A stretch of 64,000 nucleotides of DNA, from positions 62,001 through 126,000 of the forward strand of contig JANQOQ010000006.1 in NCBI GenBank assembly GCA_028285755.1. The letters are read 5' to 3'. How positions within the stretch are numbered: position 1 is the stretch's first letter; the number at the start of each line of letters is the position of its first letter. Source of the DNA: Puniceicoccaceae bacterium (GTDB lineage: Bacteria > Verrucomicrobiota > Verrucomicrobiia > Opitutales > JAFGAQ01). Of the stretch, positions 17,029 to 55,660 are shown piece by piece. The position numbers and the translations under genes were made by a program. The notes under the pieces were generated by a model. The model was not told the origin of the DNA. It did not search any database and was given only the letters and a program-made list of their open reading frames with translations.

Positions 17029-17364
17029 ATGATCCGTCTATTAACACGATACGCTGTCATGTCATTGCTCTTTCTGAGCCTGATTCCTATAGGAGCAGGT
17101 TGTCGGAGGGATAAGTTACGCGATTTTGATATTCCTGCAGGAAGCGCTACAACGACCCTCATGACTTTCGCGGATCAAGCTGAAGTAGAGATCATTCTGG
17201 ATGATCAGAATATAAGCCTGTATCGCACAAATTCAGTTAAAGGTAACATGACTCCCCTCAAAGCCCTCGAGCGTATGACGAAAAGTACCGGGCTTAATTT
17301 TACGCATGATCAGAGTAGCAATGCCTATGCTGTGAGCTCTGAACTGAGTCAGGAAACACAATAA
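17029..17364 (+). CDS. Stand-alone STN-domain (secretin/TonB N-terminal) lipoprotein
   Basis: 111 residues. A signal peptide ends in G-A-G-C at residues 22-25, a weak lipobox because position -3 is glycine. The rest is a single STN domain: FDIPAGSATTTLMTFADQAE, then L-K-A-L-E-R-M-T-K-S-T-G-L-N-F. The same fold and motifs occur in the first 110 residues of the next gene's receptor (FDIPAGQASETLRLFAMQ). STN domains normally form the periplasmic signalling part of a TBDT that touches FecR, so a free copy between fecR and the receptor gene is unusual. It could be a membrane-tethered competitor, adaptor or relay in the signalling chain. The function is inferred from domain identity only. Confidence 0.82.
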   Translation: MIRLLTRYAVMSLLFLSLIPIGAGCRRDKLRDFDIPAGSATTTLMTFADQAEVEIILDDQNISLYRTNSVKGNMTPLKALERMTKSTGLNFTHDQSSNAYAVSSELSQETQ

Positions 17365-31419: not shown

Positions 31420-34377
31420 TTAGAACTCAAAAGTGGTCTGGAATCTCCAACTGAGCCCCGATTCATAAACGTATCCATACAGATCTTTGTCGTCCGTGAG
31501 ATTGTCTATATTCAACTGGAAGGATATGGGATTTTCCTTAATCTGAGTGTCATAGGCCACCATGCAGTTGAACAACCACTTCTCATCGGTGAATAGGTTG
31601 ATACGGTTACCATCAGCATCTCTTACTGCATTACCGCCTACTGTAAAACCCGTCAGGTATGCTCGCTCACTTTGATAGTCACCCCCGAAAGCAAGTCTCA
31701 AGCCTTCGAGCGGTCCTTCATCAAAACTATAGCTGCTCCAAAAGCCGAAATCATGCTCAGGGGTATCGTCAAGAGATAGCCCATTGGTAGATGCAGGGCC
31801 CCCTGTCCAGGTGGATGTATCCTGAGGATCAACGTAGGCCTCGTTGAGTGGCACTCCCTGTAGACCCCAGTTACCATCCGGGAAATACCAGATTGCCCAG
31901 CGATCCTGTGGATATGGATATTGAGGGAACTTACCTTGGTCAGTGATTTTACGCTCGGTGTTTGCGTAGTTCATGACGAGCTGCCAGTTGTCGGTAAGTG
32001 TGAACATGAACTGAAGCTCATATCCGGTTGATTCCTGTCCGCTAACCAGGTTAGCATCGAAGGTTCCGGCTGATCCTGCACCCCAGTCCATCGCGGCATT
32101 ATTACCGGGTGTATCCGAGAAATCGTTCGCAGCGTATAGCCATCCTGGCCAACCGTTTCCGGCGGCAGTCCATGCAAATACAGCATCCAGATAGGCAGCG
32201 CCTGCGGTGTCATTACCATTTGCATCAAGTACGGTCAGGTAAGTGATGCCGTCCTGCTCGAACACATTACCTGCTGCTACTGCGTTTGCATAGAGATCCC
32301 CGAGTGCTGCGTGTGCGCTATTGGTCTGTATGATATTGTTGATATCATAAACAGTGGGTTGGGTGGGGTCGTAACGCTCTTTAGCGGGAGCCGGTGTCCA
32401 CCAGGCAGGTAGGGTAGAGGCGCCGGTCACTTCAATTTTGTATGCGCTCGCGCTGGCTGCAACACGACCGTCAAAAAGTGTGAGCTTAATACCGGCTTCT
32501 TCACTTTCCGCAAAAGTCGCCGAAATCGCATTACCGTTACCATCCCGAAGTCCCGCGAAGTTGGGTTCGAGCCCCTCAGATTGCATGGCAAAGATACTTA
32601 CGCCCTCCAATATCTCCACATTGATACCCCATTGCCGAGTGGTTTCAGATTGGGGCGTTGAATCACGTAATTCTTCTTTCGTCAAAGAACCATCTTCAAA
32701 CGTAAACTCTGTAATACGCTGGTCATTACGGTCTCTACGCATACCATAGATGGCAGTGATACGGTCATTCCAGAAGCGTCCCTGCCAAACGGCATAATAG
32801 CCTTGATTGTAAGCGATGTTTTGGTCGCGCTCAGTTTGCAGAAGGGGTGAGAATCCGGCAAATCCATCGGGAGTGCCATTATCCTGAATGCCTTCACCAA
32901 ACCGAATCGGAGTCAGGTCGTTCGGATCTCTGTATAGCTGAGCACTTCTTGCTGCTGCACCCGAAACAAATACCTCTTCGGAACGATATCCGCGAAGATC
33001 AGACATCCCCAACAGGAAAGTATGGTTACTGCGGAGCATCGTAGAATCCTGAAATAGGTTTACCAGGTAGTTGAGTTCGATCTTAACTTCATCGCGCTCC
33101 TGGATAATGTCCTTTGTTTCCCATTGATAAGCTAATATCGCATCATTTAGCACCGTATTGTCACCATCAATGTTAGGATTGAAAATCTCACCGTCATAAA
33201 TGGGGTCTCCATTTGCAGCTTCAAAGGGTTCTACAAAAATAGTACTGCGCAAGTTGGAAGGACCTTCGCCAACGCTGAAAAGATTGTTAACGATATCGCG
33301 GGTAGCTACATCTACGTCCGAACGGTTGTATCCCACGAGCAAATTAAGCCCGCTAGTAATATTCTGCTCTACTTCAATAAGCAAATTAGTTGCGTCTGTT
33401 TCCACAAAAGTGTCGGGACCTGAGATACGGGCTGTGCGGTTGTCTACACCGTCAAAGACCACAAATCCAGCCTTGGAAAGTCGGTCCTGTTGGTCACCGC
33501 CTACCACTTGGTCAATACTTAGGTCACCCCGTGCACGCATTGTCTGAAAGCCTACACCGTTGGTTTTTTCGTTACCGATTTCAAAATCGAGTGTAATCTT
33601 GGTGCGCTCAAAGGGTTTGTATTCCAATACAGGGGAGAGAAACCATTTGTCCTTGCTCTGGTGATCAGTCCAGTGGTCTGCCTGTTCCCAAGCACCGGTT
33701 ACACGATACGAAAATTGATCGTTCACCGGAGCTGTTGTATCAATTGTAGCACGATATTGATTGTCAGAGCCTATTAAGGCTGCAATTTCAGTGCGTTCGA
33801 TATCCAAAGGTCGCTTAGGCAGGTAATTTACGATACCACCAAAGTTTCCAATACCATAGAGTAGGGCAGCGGGCCCGCGAACCACCTCCACACGATCAAT
33901 GTTAATGGAATCAGAGCCATGTTGCCGACGAAACCCTTTTCGCAGTGTAGATTCCGTTACAAAACCCCGAATCTTGATGGTCGTACCTGTCAGGTTTGCA
34001 GTGGCACCTGCGCCATTGTGAACACCTCCCACAACACCGTCCAAATTCGCACCCGCATCGTTTTGTGAATTTAGTATAACACCGGCAGAAAAGCGCAGTG
34101 ATTGCCGTAAGTCTGTCGCCCCTGTATCTTCAATAAACTCTGAAGTGATAACCTCAATAGGCATCGGCATATTTTGAAGTTCTATATCGATACGGGATCC
34201 GGAAATCGTATTACTTGCGTAATACCCTTTGTCATTTTCAGTACTAACTTCAAATGGAGACAAAAGGAAAATATTCTCTTCAGAATCTGCTTCGCTTTGC
34301 GCGAATATACCATTTGTCGACAATAAGCACAGGCATGCAATAACACCTGCGCAGCGTGTGAACCATTTTCTCTTCAT
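31420..34377 (-). CDS. TonB-dependent receptor (no STN domain)
   Basis: 985-residue outer-membrane receptor. Signal peptide about 1-26 (ending I-F-A-Q), TonB-box-like FLLSPFEVS, plug with VVRGPAALLYGIGNFGGIVN, and a barrel ending in WRFQTTFEF with the terminal phenylalanine used for outer-membrane insertion. It lacks the STN domain of the two other receptors in the window, so it should be controlled by the adjacent LacI regulator and not by sigma/FecR signalling. It is divergent from the phosphorylase/GPH/GH16 operon, so it probably imports beta-glucan fragments. Confidence 0.92.
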   Translation of the reverse strand: MKRKWFTRCAGVIACLCLLSTNGIFAQSEADSEENIFLLSPFEVSTENDKGYYASNTISGSRIDIELQNMPMPIEVITSEFIEDTGATDLRQSLRFSAGVILNSQNDAGANLDGVVGGVHNGAGATANLTGTTIKIRGFVTESTLRKGFRRQHGSDSINIDRVEVVRGPAALLYGIGNFGGIVNYLPKRPLDIERTEIAALIGSDNQYRATIDTTAPVNDQFSYRVTGAWEQADHWTDHQSKDKWFLSPVLEYKPFERTKITLDFEIGNEKTNGVGFQTMRARGDLSIDQVVGGDQQDRLSKAGFVVFDGVDNRTARISGPDTFVETDATNLLIEVEQNITSGLNLLVGYNRSDVDVATRDIVNNLFSVGEGPSNLRSTIFVEPFEAANGDPIYDGEIFNPNIDGDNTVLNDAILAYQWETKDIIQERDEVKIELNYLVNLFQDSTMLRSNHTFLLGMSDLRGYRSEEVFVSGAAARSAQLYRDPNDLTPIRFGEGIQDNGTPDGFAGFSPLLQTERDQNIAYNQGYYAVWQGRFWNDRITAIYGMRRDRNDQRITEFTFEDGSLTKEELRDSTPQSETTRQWGINVEILEGVSIFAMQSEGLEPNFAGLRDGNGNAISATFAESEEAGIKLTLFDGRVAASASAYKIEVTGASTLPAWWTPAPAKERYDPTQPTVYDINNIIQTNSAHAALGDLYANAVAAGNVFEQDGITYLTVLDANGNDTAGAAYLDAVFAWTAAGNGWPGWLYAANDFSDTPGNNAAMDWGAGSAGTFDANLVSGQESTGYELQFMFTLTDNWQLVMNYANTERKITDQGKFPQYPYPQDRWAIWYFPDGNWGLQGVPLNEAYVDPQDTSTWTGGPASTNGLSLDDTPEHDFGFWSSYSFDEGPLEGLRLAFGGDYQSERAYLTGFTVGGNAVRDADGNRINLFTDEKWLFNCMVAYDTQIKENPISFQLNIDNLTDDKDLYGYVYESGLSWRFQTTFEF

Positions 34378-48706: not shown

Positions 48707-50083
48707 CTACTGATTGCCCCAGGATACGACAGGGGAGGGCACATGTGCATCCTTGAAAATCGCTTCTGCCTGAGCAACGATATCCGGATGGTTACTGGCG
48801 ATGTTATATCGCTCACGCACATCCTTATCGAGATTATAAAGCTCAATCGCATAACCCCCTTTATCCATAAAGAGCTGCACGGCTTTCCAATCTCCGAAAC
48901 GCGTTGCCCGTTTTCCTCCTTGCTCATAAAATTCCCAGTAGAGATATTCGTGGATTGCCTGCTCTTCAGAATTTCCGAGCAGTGTGGGCAGGTAGCTGAT
49001 GCCGTTGATATTCTCTGGCACAGGTATACCGGCAATTTCACAGGCTGTGGGCAAGAAATCCCAGAAGGCGGAAACATGATTGCTGCTTGAGCCTGCTTGT
49101 ACCACGCCTTTCCAGGATACTACGTGGGGAACGCGTATACCGCCCTCGTACAGGTCTCTCTTTTCTCCCCGCAACATTCCATTGCCATTAAATAACTCGG
49201 CGTTATGGCCACCGGCGCTATGTGGGCCGTTGTCACTCGCGAAAAAGATGACTGTGTTTTCAAGAATACCCAAATCTTCAAGCTTCAATAAGATCTGCCC
49301 AATCTCCCAGTCTGCCCGGGCAATCATACCGGCCATAGTCGCAACCGGCTCTTCTTCGTATCGATAGTGCGCGTTTTTTGCATTAGGCACTTCCTTCCAA
49401 ATGCCACGATACGGAGCCTTGAAACGCTCTTCGGCCCAAAGCCCTGCATGGGGTAACTGCATCGAATAATGGAGAAAAAAGGGTCCCTTTTTTTCTGATT
49501 CGATGAAGCCTAAGACTTCTTTCAGAAGGATGTCCTGACTGTAGGTCTCTCCATTTTTGCCTTTATTGTCCGGATATTGAATGGCTTCACCATTACGATA
49601 CATCTTCTCCGGGAAATAGCGATGGGCTCCACGATGCGTGAGGAATCCAAAAAAGTAATCAAATCCATTATCCGCAGGGTTGCCAGGTTTACAGATACAA
49701 CCCGTGCTTGCTTTGCCGATCATACCCGTGGCATAGCCGGCTTGCTTTAAATAACTGGCGACCGTCATATCCAAAGGGTCTTTACGCAGTTGTATATCCT
49801 GATTCGCGCGAACATAGGTTTGCCCGGTATGCTGGCCGGTGAGCAGGCAAGAGCGCGAAGGAGCACAAACCGTACTGCCCGAATAATGCTGACTAAACCG
49901 CATACCCGAAGCGGCGAGTTGGTCGATGTTCGGAGTTTTAATAATGCGCTGCCCTTGGTAACCGACGTCCGCATAGCCGAGATCGTCTGCTAATATGTAT
50001 AAAATATTGGGAGAACTTTTGGATGCACTTGCCAGTAACAGGACGCTGAAAATTGAGGTGAGAATAATGGATAACCTATGCAT
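48707..50083 (-). CDS. Secreted type I sulfatase (C-A-P-S-R)
   Basis: 458 residues, signal peptide about 1-20, L-A-D-D-L-G-Y metal site, maturation site C73-A-P-S-R, GKASTG region, histidine in Q-L-P-H-A-G, SDNGP pair (ASDNGP). First gene of the four-gene operon after the TBDT terminator. Lysine is present in the G-K motif, but the usual following W-H is replaced by A-S-T-G-C, a clear departure from the four other sulfatases in this window. Confidence 0.92.
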   Translation of the reverse strand: MHRLSIILTSIFSVLLLASASKSSPNILYILADDLGYADVGYQGQRIIKTPNIDQLAASGMRFSQHYSGSTVCAPSRSCLLTGQHTGQTYVRANQDIQLRKDPLDMTVASYLKQAGYATGMIGKASTGCICKPGNPADNGFDYFFGFLTHRGAHRYFPEKMYRNGEAIQYPDNKGKNGETYSQDILLKEVLGFIESEKKGPFFLHYSMQLPHAGLWAEERFKAPYRGIWKEVPNAKNAHYRYEEEPVATMAGMIARADWEIGQILLKLEDLGILENTVIFFASDNGPHSAGGHNAELFNGNGMLRGEKRDLYEGGIRVPHVVSWKGVVQAGSSSNHVSAFWDFLPTACEIAGIPVPENINGISYLPTLLGNSEEQAIHEYLYWEFYEQGGKRATRFGDWKAVQLFMDKGGYAIELYNLDKDVRERYNIASNHPDIVAQAEAIFKDAHVPSPVVSWGNQ

Positions 50084-50263: not shown

Positions 50264-53200
50264 TTAGAAACTAAAGGTTGAGCGAAGTGTCCAGGTGCGG
50301 CCTTCGCGCCAGATAGCAGAACGTACGCTACCATCCGGTTGAGTGCCAACAGCGACAACTTCACCATCGCTTAGGGCATTGCGGATATTGAGCTGAAGCG
50401 CCCAATCAATTTTGCCATCCCAGATTTTACGTTTGTAACCTACCCAAAGATCCACCCGAGTGATTGCATCGTCTGTGTAAGGATTGTCCAGATCGAAGAT
50501 CTCTACCTGTTGGCCATCAATCTCAGCCACTTTAACTGGATAACCGATCGCTTTTTCATCTTCCCAACGATAGGCACCTCCTACATTGAATCCCTTAAAC
50601 TTGGAATCATCAGCAAAACGATAGTTGGTGATAACATTGGTGCGCCATTCACGCAATTCAGGAACAAGCTGCCCATCCCTGGCAAGATTTGCATTCAGGG
50701 TGTTCAATAGCGTATCGTATACACGTATATTTACCGGCTGATCCGACTCATCCGCAATCAGGAAACCGGGACCTCCGGGAGTCGTATCCGTCCATTCATC
50801 AAATCGATATGTAAGATACTCACGTGTTGCGGGCAGTAGATTACTGCGTACGGCTTCCTGCTGGGCAATATTCCAGGATATGCGCCAATTCGATGTCGGG
50901 TTAAAGATCATGTCGATTTCACGACCCTTGGACAGGGTGCTTTGAGTATCATTCAGAGCAAAGGGAGCTCCATCCTGTTGTACATTAAAGCCACTTTCAG
51001 TATTGCCTTCTACAATACGCCATCCGGTTAAATCCTTATAGAACTGAGGCGGACCTTGATAACCGCTTGCTGCAATCGCTTCAGGTGAATTATAGCGGAT
51101 GATACGGCGATCGGTTTCAGTGAGGAATCCTGGATATCCCGCACGTACGTTATCTGATGTGGTTTCGAACTCATTATAGCGGATCACAAACTTTCCATCC
51201 AATAGATTGATTGTAAATCCATAGTCCTCAGTGGTACCACCCGGAGGTGTCAGAAGGTTCCCAAATATATCGATTGAAGGCGACGCAATTTGGAAATTCT
51301 CCGACTCACCCCAATGGAATGAAATATCGATACCATCGGGTAATGGCACAAAATCAGGTGTGTGCACTACAAGACCATAAGATCGTGTGATGGCCTCGAA
51401 AGGTTCTTCAGAAACTTCTTCATTCAAGCGCAGCTCTTCAAGGTCAATGAAGTCGAATTCATTGCGCGGTGTGTTTGAAGCAAACGACTTCACGCGATCC
51501 TTACGATAACCAAAAGTTCCGACGATCCATTCTGTATCAAACAGATATGCCTGATGTACGTATGCATAAGAGTCAGTGATCTGACGATTTACCGTTTTGC
51601 CATGAATACTGTTCCAGAAGTTATCATCATAGTCCGGACCCACAAATACGGGTGTATGTGTATAGTTTAACCAGGTATCGGATGGACGGTCATAATAATA
51701 ATGAGTAACGGGCTGGGGCGTGATGGTATCGCGCACTCCATAGATATTGCCTCCCTGGGGTCCGGATGCATTTGCAAAACTATCGCCCACCCATACGCGT
51801 GTGCGCATATTCGTAGGGCCACCGTTTAGATCCGTATTTCCAATAACGGTTTGCGCAAAATCAACGTCTCCATGGTTTCGTGCACTGTAGCTATTGGTAT
51901 CGCGCATAAATGTCTGCGCAAACACCGTACCTGAATGTCTGCCAAACCAATTGATCCACTGGGTTTCTGCATTTTTGAAATCGATTTCAAAAAAGGCGGT
52001 TCCACGGGATACCTCACGCTCGCCAATATTGGTCTGACGTTGATTTTGAGCAGCAATGAAGGGACGACCAAAGTTCGGGTTCGGATCTCCCCAATTCGTG
52101 GTCGTGTTAATATCTATATTAATGTTGTAACCCCGTGCGCCTTGGAACATATCAAACCAGCTGCGCTCAATACGCTCGTTGGAGTAAGTGAACTCATAAC
52201 CGGCTGAACCCCAGTCGAATGTGAATATCTGCTCCATGCTGAAGTTAAATACATCAAAGGTTTCCCATTCGTTCTTATTGGGACCATCGAGCATATTTTC
52301 CACCCAATCGAATACACTGCGATCCAGGAGCTCTTCATCCCCCCAGAATGAGCCGAATTCGATGCCATTGGCTGCTGCAGTTGGGGACTGATACCATTGC
52401 TCGCCTTTCGTGATCGATACCTGGTGGGTCCGAAAGCGTCGGCCTCCTCCCGGAAATGTAGTTTCCCAGGCGCGCGCAGAATAAAGCACTTCGCCTGTAT
52501 TACCATCGATTTGGTAGCCGGGCTGTCCAAACCATTCGCCCGGTGCGCGCACGATATCCCGGTCAATACGACCAAACTCAATATTCGCCGGATCATGAGT
52601 CACTTTGTTGAAGGCCGGGTGCCACCAGCGGGTAAAAGTATCACGCGGTGCATTGGGGCGTGGACGTCTTGCATCTACTTCACCACGCTCGTAACTGGCA
52701 CGAAATGTAACCCCTTCAAGCGGGTTAAATGTAACTGCAACCGTTCCTCGTTGAGTCTTGCTGTAAGAAGGATCCTGACGCCATTCGCGATCCTGATAAA
52801 CGCCCGCGACGCGAACCGCCAACATATCGTCTATAACGACCTTATTGATATCAAAATTTGCCCGATAGTTGTTAAAAGATCCAATACGAGCTGAAAATTT
52901 GTAGGCATCCCGATTGAGCCGTGCCTGAATGGTTTGGTGATTGATAATACCTCCGGGTGAACCCAGTCCGAATAGGGTGGAGTTCGGCCCGCGGTTCACA
53001 GCAACCCGCTCCACATTATAACCATCATAGACGATGCCTGTTGGCAGATAATTACGCGTGTTGTCCGCTCTTGCCAAACCACGGATACGGTTTGCATTTT
53101 GAGGATTACGGTTCTGACTGGTGAATGTAATGGTAGCAACACCATCGCCGCCTCCATAACTTCCATCCGGACCACCGGTTTCAATATTACCCAGGAAAGG

Positions 53201-53899
53201 GAGTAACTCAGACGGATTGTTGACATCAAGATCCGACATCAGCTCCTGGGTCGCGACTACGATTGAATTGGGCAAGTCACTGAGTTGGGTCTTAATACGG
53301 GTACCTGCAAGCGTATTGGTTGCAAAGTAACCCATCTCTTCGGTCGTTTCTACGACGAATGGAGAGAGCAACAGAACATCCTCAGTGTCCTCTTCAGTCT
53401 GCGCCTCAAGGGGAGTCGTAAACGTAGTAACCAATACTGCGGCAAGGGTAGCCAGAAAACTCTGTTCAGCTTTTCTGGTAGAATTAATCGTTTTGGGATT
53501 TTTCATTTCCATTGTGTATGTTTCGTTTTGTAGTTCCGAATCATCGCTCATGGACTCAGAAAGTTCCGGCTCGCTCTTTGATATAGCAAAGGCGCCATTC
53601 GCTTTTGCCTGCACAAAAGAAAGTCCAGTTCCCTCTAACATCAGATAAAGTGCTCTTGATGGAGTGTAATAACCATGCAAAGCATTGGTTATTACTCCCT
53701 CCACAAAAACATCTGAAAAGATAATTTGAATCCCACTTTGTTTCGCCGCCAGCTGCAGGTTTTCCCTGGCTTGACCTTGAGGTATTTGAAAGTGGAATTC
53801 GCTTTCTTCTATCTGATCCTCCGAACCCCAAAGACCGATTATCGTACATACGAAGAAAGCGCTCAATAGCGCTCCCCGAATCAAAGCCGGATTCGGCAA
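50264..53899 (-). CDS. TonB-dependent receptor with STN domain (start uncertain, likely one-base frameshift)
   Basis: 1211 residues as read from a TTG at 53899. Signal peptide, then STN domain about 35-105 (F-Q-I-P-Q-G-Q-A-R-E-N-L), linker, a second signal-peptide-like segment (about 132-166, ending P-L-E-A-Q), TonB-box-like LLLSPFVVE, plug with NRGPNSTLFGLGSPGGIIN and a barrel ending in TLRSTFSF. Upstream there is an ATG at 53933 that is out of frame by one base: removing one A from the five-A run after it gives M-K-I-L-N-L-K-L-N-R-T in frame with the receptor. As written, TGA stops the frame upstream of 53926, so only TTG (or another rare start) is available. The ECF-type promoter at 53954-53990 fits a start at 53933. 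It pairs with FecR and sigma at 54-55.6 kb. Confidence 0.88.
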   Translation of the reverse strand: MPNPALIRGALLSAFFVCTIIGLWGSEDQIEESEFHFQIPQGQARENLQLAAKQSGIQIIFSDVFVEGVITNALHGYYTPSRALYLMLEGTGLSFVQAKANGAFAISKSEPELSESMSDDSELQNETYTMEMKNPKTINSTRKAEQSFLATLAAVLVTTFTTPLEAQTEEDTEDVLLLSPFVVETTEEMGYFATNTLAGTRIKTQLSDLPNSIVVATQELMSDLDVNNPSELLPFLGNIETGGPDGSYGGGDGVATITFTSQNRNPQNANRIRGLARADNTRNYLPTGIVYDGYNVERVAVNRGPNSTLFGLGSPGGIINHQTIQARLNRDAYKFSARIGSFNNYRANFDINKVVIDDMLAVRVAGVYQDREWRQDPSYSKTQRGTVAVTFNPLEGVTFRASYERGEVDARRPRPNAPRDTFTRWWHPAFNKVTHDPANIEFGRIDRDIVRAPGEWFGQPGYQIDGNTGEVLYSARAWETTFPGGGRRFRTHQVSITKGEQWYQSPTAAANGIEFGSFWGDEELLDRSVFDWVENMLDGPNKNEWETFDVFNFSMEQIFTFDWGSAGYEFTYSNERIERSWFDMFQGARGYNINIDINTTTNWGDPNPNFGRPFIAAQNQRQTNIGEREVSRGTAFFEIDFKNAETQWINWFGRHSGTVFAQTFMRDTNSYSARNHGDVDFAQTVIGNTDLNGGPTNMRTRVWVGDSFANASGPQGGNIYGVRDTITPQPVTHYYYDRPSDTWLNYTHTPVFVGPDYDDNFWNSIHGKTVNRQITDSYAYVHQAYLFDTEWIVGTFGYRKDRVKSFASNTPRNEFDFIDLEELRLNEEVSEEPFEAITRSYGLVVHTPDFVPLPDGIDISFHWGESENFQIASPSIDIFGNLLTPPGGTTEDYGFTINLLDGKFVIRYNEFETTSDNVRAGYPGFLTETDRRIIRYNSPEAIAASGYQGPPQFYKDLTGWRIVEGNTESGFNVQQDGAPFALNDTQSTLSKGREIDMIFNPTSNWRISWNIAQQEAVRSNLLPATREYLTYRFDEWTDTTPGGPGFLIADESDQPVNIRVYDTLLNTLNANLARDGQLVPELREWRTNVITNYRFADDSKFKGFNVGGAYRWEDEKAIGYPVKVAEIDGQQVEIFDLDNPYTDDAITRVDLWVGYKRKIWDGKIDWALQLNIRNALSDGEVVAVGTQPDGSVRSAIWREGRTWTLRSTFSF

Positions 53900-53933
53900 T
53901 GTTCTGTTCAGTTTGAGGTTCAGAATTTTTCAT

Positions 53934-53954
53934 GGAGCAACAATTCGTTGCCCC
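53934..53954 (-). promoter_or_regulatory. Stem-loop directly before the TBDT ATG
   Basis: On the minus strand GGGGCAAC (53954-53947) pairs with GTTGCTCC (53941-53934) around a 5-base loop, with one G-U pair. The ATG at 53933 follows with no gap. It may affect translation start or be a DNA operator overlapping the promoter. Its first bases overlap the proposed -10 area, so part of it may not be transcribed. Confidence 0.35.
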
Positions 53955-53990
53955 TTCAACGATTATAAATCTATTTACCCTGAAAAAATT
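53954..53990 (-). promoter_or_regulatory. Candidate ECF sigma promoter of the TBDT gene
   Basis: Minus strand: AATTTTTTCAGGGT (53990-53977), a 14-base spacer, then TCGTTGAAG (53962-53954). The same two boxes with the same 14-base spacer stand before the sigma gene at 55624-55660. A transcript from here would start only about 15-20 bases before the ATG at 53933. Confidence 0.65.
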
Positions 53991-54031
53991 TAATAATAAC
54001 CATTAGAGAGAGATACATTCAGTGGTGTCAC

Positions 54032-55069
54032 TTAAATGTAGAGGTATATTCCTTGCGAATCTTCCCGATGTTGGATTCCCATCGTAATTTCAAGCAATTC
54101 AAGAAAATCATCCAGATTATCCAGACGAATTAAAATAGTCATCGTCAGCTGTTTTATAGCTTCGTCTTCAACGATAATGGGCTTCTGACCTTCAAAGCGC
54201 ATAAACTCAGCGACGATTTCTTCAATGGGTGCAGAAACCATTTCAATGATTTTGTTTTTCCAGGAAAATTGATCATCCAGTTCACTTTTAGTAAACTTTA
54301 TGATTTCAATATCGTCATTCGGACTATTCTGAGTCACTTTTTGGCCTGCGATTAATCGTATCGGTGATCTTTCAGGTGTACTTTCCACATGATTCGTTTC
54401 ATCAGCAGAGATGCTTTCGTCGACATCAACAATCCCTTCGGTAACGTATACTTCCCAGGTAAGCTCATCCTGCTTTACGGAAAAAGCAGTCCCTACTGCA
54501 GTAACCCGGCCACTGGGTGCTTTTACAATGAAAGGCCTTTCTGCATCACTTACGACATTGAAATAAGCCTGACCATGAAATATCTCAATATCTCTTTGGT
54601 TTTGAGTATACTCTACTTTTAACCGACTTCCTTGCTTCAGATAAAACGAAGAGCCATCTTCCAAAAAATGCCTTTCATTATTCTCAGCAAAATACTCCAC
54701 CAATTCGGCGCGTGGCTGTTCTTTAACCGAAACTGTAATCTGAGAAAAATAGACAAAACCAATCGCTAAAATAGCAGCGAGCCCGACTATAGGATACGTA
54801 AGTGCCTGCTTCAATTTCTTAGGTTTTTCGAACAAGTCCGCATTCGGCTCACTACTGTATTTGGGTTTCCAATCCTCGAGCGGATCGAATGTCCCCCAAA
54901 TGACGTTTTGCTCAAAATAACAATCCTCGTTCGAGGAATCTTCCTTTAACCATTGCTGGAATTCCAATTCTTCGCTTTGCGTGAGGCCACGTTCATGCTT
55001 AGCAACCCACAAGCTCGCTTGCTTTTTCTGCTTCTTTGAGAATTCCCAATTATGTTTATGCTTTTCCAT
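54032..55069 (-). CDS. FecR-family anti-sigma/signal transducer
   Basis: 345 residues: cytoplasmic sigma-binding part (about 10-60; ASLWVAKHERGLT, EFQQWLKEDSSNEDCYFEQ), membrane helix about 93-110 (YPIVGLAAILAIGFVYF), periplasmic FecR domain (about 125-235; G-T-A-F-S-V, VTEGIVDVDES), C-terminal STN-like DUF4974-type module (about 265-345). It starts 10 bases after the sigma gene and is followed by the STN-TBDT gene after a 98-base gap holding a separate promoter. Same role as the FecR at 16 kb, but no stand-alone STN lipoprotein is present in this locus. Confidence 0.93.
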   Translation of the reverse strand: MEKHKHNWEFSKKQKKQASLWVAKHERGLTQSEELEFQQWLKEDSSNEDCYFEQNVIWGTFDPLEDWKPKYSSEPNADLFEKPKKLKQALTYPIVGLAAILAIGFVYFSQITVSVKEQPRAELVEYFAENNERHFLEDGSSFYLKQGSRLKVEYTQNQRDIEIFHGQAYFNVVSDAERPFIVKAPSGRVTAVGTAFSVKQDELTWEVYVTEGIVDVDESISADETNHVESTPERSPIRLIAGQKVTQNSPNDDIEIIKFTKSELDDQFSWKNKIIEMVSAPIEEIVAEFMRFEGQKPIIVEDEAIKQLTMTILIRLDNLDDFLELLEITMGIQHREDSQGIYLYI

Positions 55070-55079
55070 CTTGATCCTA

Positions 55080-55598
55080 TTACTGTAGCTCCATGTAAAA
55101 CTTATTACACTTTCTTATCCCAATGGATATTTGTGTTTCGACTGTCTTTACAGATACACCGAGTTCTTCTGCGATCTGCTTTAGTGACATACCATAAACT
55201 TTGCGAAGTGTAAAAACCCGCCTACACTTTTTGGGCAAAGCCTGAATTGCTTCGTTCAATATATTAAGTTCTTCCTGCTGAATTAATTTATCAGGAATCG
55301 ATTTAGTATTGCTAGCGTAGGGAGTTGTTTCTTCTGCCAGCGATTCAAATTGAACGATACGCTTTCTTCTAATTATATCAACTGATAGATTATGAGCAGT
55401 GGAAAACAGGAACGCTTTGGGAGATTTCAGGGGGTTAATGCGATTACGCTTCACGGTTCGGATGTAGGACTCCTGAATGATATCCTCAACAGAATCGAGT
55501 ATAGAGAACCGCTTATTCAACCATGACCTTAACAGGTCTTCATGAGGCTGTATATGCTCATGAAACCAGTCCGCTTCGTTTTTATTAAATTTGGGCAT
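55080..55598 (-). CDS. ECF-family RNA polymerase sigma factor
   Basis: 172 residues with region 2 (about 30-75; V-E-D-I-I-Q-E-S-Y-I-R-T-V, S-P-K-A-F-L-F-S-T-A-H-N) and region 4 helix-turn-helix (about 115-165; MSLKQIAEELGVSVKTVET). It heads a sigma/FecR/TBDT unit. Its own promoter region carries the CAGGGT-N14-TCGTT pair found also before the TBDT gene, which fits a factor that activates itself and its receptor. Confidence 0.95.
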   Translation of the reverse strand: MPKFNKNEADWFHEHIQPHEDLLRSWLNKRFSILDSVEDIIQESYIRTVKRNRINPLKSPKAFLFSTAHNLSVDIIRRKRIVQFESLAEETTPYASNTKSIPDKLIQQEELNILNEAIQALPKKCRRVFTLRKVYGMSLKQIAEELGVSVKTVETQISIGIRKCNKFYMELQ

Positions 55599-55623
55599 TA
55601 TTGAAATCTATAGATTCGAAACT

Positions 55624-55660
55624 CTAAAACGAACAACCACGCATTAACCCTGAAAAATTT
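55624..55660 (-). promoter_or_regulatory. Candidate ECF sigma promoter of the sigma factor gene
   Basis: Minus strand: AAATTTTTCAGGGT (55660-55647), a 14-base spacer, then TCGTTTTAG (55632-55624), about 25 bases before the ATG at 55598. It matches the site before the TBDT gene (53954-53990) in both boxes and spacing. Confidence 0.65.

Follow-up and report, generated by a model that had tools for sequence, protein, structure and literature searches.

An ECF sigma gene and its TonB-dependent receptor gene share a predicted promoter word in a Puniceicoccaceae bacterium, with a second open frame at the start of the receptor gene

A sigma–FecR–receptor module and its two matching sites

The window analysed here, a 64,000-nucleotide stretch of a Puniceicoccaceae genome, carries on its minus strand an ECF sigma factor gene (55080..55598, 172 amino acids), beside it a FecR-type regulator gene with a FecR domain (54032..55069, 345 amino acids), and then a TonB-dependent receptor gene (50264..53899), the product of which, 1,211 amino acids when read from a TTG codon, has a signal peptide, a FecA-like N-terminal signalling region and a plug. 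The sigma factor has ECF regions 2 and 4 and scores below the cut-offs of the FecI-specific models (65.4 of 260 bits). For the receptor, Pfam reports the plug and, at 1e-3, no STN domain; the FecA model covers residues 30–111 at 2.8e-6. The genes behind the receptor are, in order, a sulfatase gene (48707..50083, minus strand), a GH43-like gene, a gene for a TPR protein and another sulfatase gene and, judging by gene order, the first sulfatase gene is probably part of the receptor transcript. The closest named homologues of the sigma factor include Opitutaceae proteins; no homologue closer than 54% was found in the 372 genomes searched, so that footprinting of the two sites described below in orthologues is not possible. 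Its two nearest homologues elsewhere, at 54% and 53%, have TTTAAGGGA...ACGTT before their receptors.

A preliminary description of this DNA had pointed to two copies of the bipartite sequence CAGGGT-N14-TCGTT, and both are indeed present on the minus strand, at 55652–55628 and 53982–53958, with the same 14-base gap and differing spacer letters (TAATGCGTGGTTGT at the sigma site, AAATAGATTTATAA at the receptor site). A T-run precedes CAGGGT at each. The predicted sigma-gene promoter (55628..55657, minus strand) consists of a T-run at 55657–55653, the −35 word CAGGGT at 55652–55647, the 14-base spacer and the −10 word TCGTT at 55632–55628, and the ATG of the sigma gene follows 30 bases after the −10 word. 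The predicted receptor-gene promoter (53958..53988, minus strand), which sits between the FecR gene and the receptor gene, repeats this layout, with a T-run at 53988–53983, CAGGGT at 53982–53977, 14 bases of spacer and TCGTT at 53962–53958. The identical spacing, on which the description had also relied, is shared by both sites but is no private mark of the pair: among 28 receptor promoters measured, the words are 14 bases apart in 20, 15 in seven and 13 in one.

The exact core occurs twice in the window, against 0.01 expected, and none of 100 shuffles held two; the copies lie 1.7 kb apart and both are start-proximal, one before the ECF sigma gene and one before its receptor gene. With up to two mismatches the core is common in the window (20 matches, 13.1 expected), which is barely above chance, so that only near-exact matches carry weight. 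As had been described, no such site precedes the other sigma gene (15427), its receptor gene (17429) or the third receptor gene (31420–34377, minus strand). The whole genome (4.25 Mb in 15 contigs) holds four exact cores and no match to the pattern read backwards; simple base counting predicts about two, so the other two matches may be chance. When TTT is required in front of the core, only the sigma and receptor sites are left without a mismatch in the whole genome. Across the order, the exact sequence TTTCAGGGT-N14-TCGTT is found in seven of 372 genomes, twice in the own genome and once in each of the six others; the same search read backwards gives five matches in the 372 genomes, and the sites outside the own genome are therefore background. 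A genome-wide scan of this kind had been proposed as a check, and it excludes many random matches for the full word.

A third exact core, at G000:C15:149856-149880 (L003:1501-1525), lies 180 bases upstream of a sulfatase gene, on the right strand and in the gap between divergent genes. This gene, 32 kb away, is a possible third target, an unproven candidate suggested by the position of the core. Two other sites were rejected as members of the regulon: the exact core at G000:C15:816326, which is located across from the start of a sulfatase gene and is oriented away from that gene, and a one-mismatch site at C15:674657, which falls within a gene encoded on the opposite strand.

The other module of the window has a small ORF between its FecR and receptor genes (approximately 17030–17362, plus strand), with a lipoprotein-like start and signalling-domain-like sequence. 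ORFs like it also occur in modules L091, L096, L097, L102 and others, and could encode a free-standing copy of the receptor signalling domain, a separate messenger. In L096 the small ORF ends at a stop and the receptor frame continues in the same frame behind it; the stretch ahead of the signal peptide contains none of the usual start codons.

Predicted promoter words across sister modules

The genome contains 46 sigma matches and 40 FecR matches, 39 of the latter over the cut-off. We took 39 sigma loci, of which 38 are sigma–FecR modules (the genome has about 38 sigma–FecR–receptor modules), and scored every pair of a sigma-upstream and a receptor-upstream region by the best shared two-box match. 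Pairs from the same module score higher than foreign pairs, with p 5e-5 under fixed-gap scoring; with a free gap, the scores are 19.14 for own and 17.67 for foreign pairs, reached in none of 100,000 permutations, and with two sigma starts corrected they are 18.69 and 17.23, reached in one of 100,000. Modules ranked first or close to first in both directions differ in their word: TTCAGGGT/TCGTT in the window module, and TGAGTATA/CGTC, AGTTAGGG/ACGAT, TTTAGTGA/TTCAC, TGGTGAGT/GCTC, CTAGTGAG/GGGTC, GGTGGG/ACTCT and others elsewhere. The effect is weaker among relatives (31 modules; 183 of 100,000 permutations), where only L112 is convincing and the other best-scoring pairs look like chance matches. 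L112, from another genus and a relative of L074, has TTTGAGTA-N16-CGT at both places and repeats the GAGTA..CGT word of L074.

A receptor word could be named in 16 of the 38 modules and was searched for before all 38 sigma genes. Allowing at most two mismatches of 13, it stands before the module's own sigma gene in 10 of 16 cases and in 8 of 592 foreign tests; at no more than one mismatch the counts are 8 of 16 and 2 of 592. The six modules in which the word has no copy before the own sigma gene are L073, L076, L078, L079, L081 and L098. The module words behind these counts, and behind the correlations that follow, were selected by visual inspection, in some cases while both sites could be seen. 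Such a selection is biased towards pairing, a bias that does not affect the permutation tests.

The words also vary with the sigma factors. Over 28 modules from several genomes, similarity of the −35 words correlates with identity in sigma region 4 (r 0.375, p 2e-4) and hardly with identity in region 2 (r 0.148, p 0.056), a difference that recognition of the −35 word by region 4 would predict. Similarity of the −10 words correlates about equally with region 2 (0.234, p 0.004) and region 4 (0.234, p 0.004). The closest sigma relatives of the window module, in L171, L172, L073 and L075, go with AAGGG words, which differ from CAGGG by one or two letters.

On the strength of these comparisons we read both sites as a private promoter recognized by the module's own ECF sigma factor, with a probability of roughly 85%. 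The module would then be a cell-surface signalling system of the FecI–FecR–FecA kind, in which the receptor signals through FecR and the sigma factor becomes active; the active factor would transcribe its own sigma–fecR operon, closing a positive feedback loop, as well as the receptor gene and the enzyme genes behind it. We infer from the sites that the sigma factor binds at both of them, that transcripts start there and that activation follows this order. The preliminary description had proposed this combination of autoregulation and receptor activation, and the sister modules, which pair their own words in both places with words that follow the sigma factor, support it. Because six of the 16 sister modules have no copy of the word before the sigma gene, autoregulation by this mechanism is predicted for only part of the family, common and not universal in this genome. 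With each sister module using its own version of the word, dozens of related sigma factors could work in one cell with little cross-talk.

Two other explanations of the sites have to be weighed against this reading. It is very improbable that the likeness of the two sites is chance: the short core with two mismatches is barely above chance in the window and two further exact genomic matches may be accidental, but an exact pair 1.7 kb apart, with both members start-proximal, is expected at only 0.01, and the pairing within modules recurs across 38 modules. Alternatively, the sites could be bound by another factor, for example a DNA-binding activator or the ECF sigma of a sister module, with the sigma and receptor genes merely co-regulated. 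Some 40 related sigma factors in the genome offer candidates for such a factor, and the six modules with a receptor word and no sigma copy imply that some sigma genes are driven otherwise. We nevertheless regard this as unlikely, given that the words follow the module's own sigma factor, with −35 words tied to region 4, that foreign pairings match in only 8 of 592 tests, and that a T-run, a −35 word, a fixed spacer and a CGT-type −10 word make up the anatomy of an ECF promoter.

The receptor leader and its second reading frame

Three bases past the −10 word of the receptor site lies a stem-loop, GGGGCAAC-GAATT-GTTGCTCC (53934..53954, minus strand; −12.8 kcal/mol, z −4.7), which is predicted to form the 5′ end of the receptor message: it stands at a short fixed distance past the −10 word, as a transcript start there would imply. 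The sigma leader of the window module has no stem-loop. In the own genome, 11 of 38 receptor leaders and two of 38 sigma leaders have a best stem-loop that outdoes 95% of shuffles; in relatives the corresponding counts are seven and six (31 modules) and four and three (ten more). The stem letters vary between modules while both arms still match, and an ATG or GTG directly follows the stem-loop. In the window this ATG opens a frame of 125 amino acids (53556..53933, minus strand), one base off the receptor frame. The receptor transcript would open with a stem-loop, followed by two starts in different frames, one for the overlapping frame of about 125 codons and one for the receptor.

Among 26 stem-loop-plus-ATG matches, the receptor frame is +1 in 18, +2 in five and 0 in three. 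By eye, and in a sorting made after the frames had been seen, 17 of the 18 +1 matches follow promoter-like sequence, the exception being L138, and the eight matches in other frames have none before them, apart from L140, possibly a genuine exception. In an independent set of 40 modules, in six of which the receptor frame was not found, the remaining 34 gave nine stem-loop matches without any sorting, and all nine are +1. In modules L073 and L171, synthesis of the receptor may depend on a different start codon or on a frame slip. Stretches of ACCC or CCCC are common between the stem-loop ATG and the receptor's own start, for example in L074, L075, L081 and L116. As a general start signal CCCC/ACCC was rejected; flagged from 35 bases upstream of the start to 15 downstream of it, such stretches occur at 13 of 41 window genes, not clearly above background.

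The second frame overlaps the receptor signal peptide and signalling domain and is open for about 70–165 codons in the 49 modules listed. In the own modules with a stem-loop, it contains six stops in 864 N-terminal codons, compared with 781 in 8,219 further down the same genes; for comparison, the FecR genes have 1,074 in 11,400. The third frame has no such drop (54 of 855 N-terminal codons, 307 of 8,219 downstream). The depletion results from synonymous codon choice. In NNY codons whose third-position T would create a stop, T is used in 11 of 163, compared with 1,025 of 2,070 downstream (Fisher 1.3e-30); at the other NNY codons its share is equal (467 of 811 and 3,059 of 5,467, p 0.40). The modules for this comparison were chosen by their stem-loop, and those for its control by a closed second frame; the nine own modules of the control show no effect (62 of 109 and 770 of 1,400, p 0.76).

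Since these sets had been chosen by stem-loop or closed frame, the test was repeated without any choice of modules, by redrawing synonymous codons from each gene's own usage. The second frame then has 69 stops against 133.1 expected in the own modules (26 of 38 usable), 50 against 67.6 and 1 against 28.7 in relatives (20 of 31 and 7 of 10 usable), and 53 against 125.2, with a standard deviation of 9.1, in the independent set (32 of 40 usable). The third frame is undepleted throughout (166 against 145.1 in the own modules, 68 against 63.1 and 28 against 24.3 in relatives, 154 against 129.3 in the independent set). The window module taken alone has no stop in the second frame where 3.7 are expected (p 0.004). 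Eight own modules, L088, L091, L094, L096, L097, L104, L105 and L109, among them the other sigma module of the window, are without depletion; in these the receptor start lies far from FecR, and several have a small lipoprotein-like signalling-domain ORF in between. Selection against stops in the second frame is well supported by these codon statistics, which cannot be said of selection on the amino acids it encodes.

What the frame is selected for can be approached from its product. The predicted second-frame products are basic (pI 8.4–12) and poorly alike; Pfam and NCBIfam gave no match for those tested (three and one), and one single-sequence structure model of the 125-amino-acid product has low confidence (pLDDT 40). 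Four-fold sites differ less in the overlap than downstream between L111 and L174 (9 of 41 and 90 of 187), although the amino acids differ more there (17% and 3%), and the same holds for four-fold sites between L173 and L174 (13 of 32 and 100 of 139); L193 and L210 run in the opposite direction (15 of 38 in the overlap, 25 of 93 downstream), and among the few suitable pairs several are uninformative. On this evidence the frame may be translated and may have a role, with a made and useful product and a part in translation control about equally likely, and a +1 slip less so.

The chances seem evenly balanced that Opitutales-type bacteria have a widespread and so far unrecorded class of overlapping genes, in which receptor genes with their own ECF promoter and a 5′ stem-loop carry, directly behind the stem-loop and over the receptor's signal peptide and signalling domain, a translated second frame of about 105–135 codons. 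Selection would maintain this frame without stops across dozens of paralogues and different families, and it would be expressed under each module's private word. It is quite possible, if somewhat less probable, that the product has no function, the ATG being a decoy that lowers receptor synthesis and stops being avoided since early release harms the message. The poor likeness of the basic products, the lack of a known domain and the low model confidence (pLDDT 40) would fit such a decoy, but the lower rate of change at four-fold sites in the overlap in two comparisons, where receptor amino acids change more, speaks against it. Translation might instead begin at the ATG behind the stem-loop, with ribosomes then shifting by +1 to read the receptor frame; the second frame would in that case be nothing other than the receptor's start. 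In favour of a slip, every promoter-linked case has its receptor frame at +1 relative to that ATG; the stretch from stem-loop to signal peptide in L073 and L171 offers the receptor frame no ATG, GTG or TTG codon; and CCC-rich stretches lie between the two starts. A slip is rather unlikely all the same: stop avoidance extends about 100 codons past any early slip site, which weakens a +1 frameshift as the sole explanation, in most modules the receptor frame supplies a start of its own, and in L098 that frame is interrupted by a stop after the ATG and ahead of the receptor's own start.

Relation to known systems

The module resembles the FecI–FecR–FecA system for ferric citrate of E. coli in its order of sigma, FecR and receptor genes, in the receptor's own promoter and in the FecA-like N-terminal region. 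Its neighbours, sulfatases and glycoside-hydrolase-like genes, set it apart from that system, as does the perfect copy of the receptor word that the sequence reveals at the sigma gene: in E. coli, fecIR is described as read by sigma-70 under Fur and not autoregulated (PMC9249621). Three sources describe the best-known FecI-type sigma factors in general as not autoregulated (PMC3817407, PMC9249621, PMC12772443), and a survey of ECF promoters left out the six FecI-like subgroups for that reason (PMC3817407). The lack of sigma autoregulation is a habit of the studied FecI members, not a defining trait. In the autoregulated ECF operons of the same survey, the promoter of the sigma gene likewise copies the target promoter; unlike in those operons, the pairing here lies inside FecR-type modules and is module-specific within one genome. 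The kind of module is already known, and paired private words in FecR-type modules are a variant of its wiring.

Many sets of sigma factor, anti-sigma factor and receptor for glycan use within one genome are also a feature of the ECF/anti-sigma/SusC-type systems of Bacteroidetes (PMC3878776), from which the present modules differ in phylum and in that their words were read by comparing modules; that source calls ECF promoter prediction a challenge that needs start-site data. Our literature search, with most subscription papers outside its reach, found nothing on ECF promoters in receptor modules of Verrucomicrobiota and nothing on an overlapping frame in TonB receptor genes.

Known same-strand overlapping genes in bacteria are mostly single genes. 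Like them, the frame described here is a further open frame within a gene, under selection to stay free of stops; unlike them, it recurs across numerous paralogous receptor genes from several families and is linked there to a promoter and a stem-loop. If borne out, it would amount to a recurrent receptor-linked second product, or a form of translation control, where annotation programs see one gene. If the private-promoter reading is true, one genome would list, in readable form, which promoter word belongs to which sigma factor, in a class usually called non-autoregulated. The ECF recognition code would then be testable pair by pair, and regulons would become predictable in bacteria that digest sulfated glycans.
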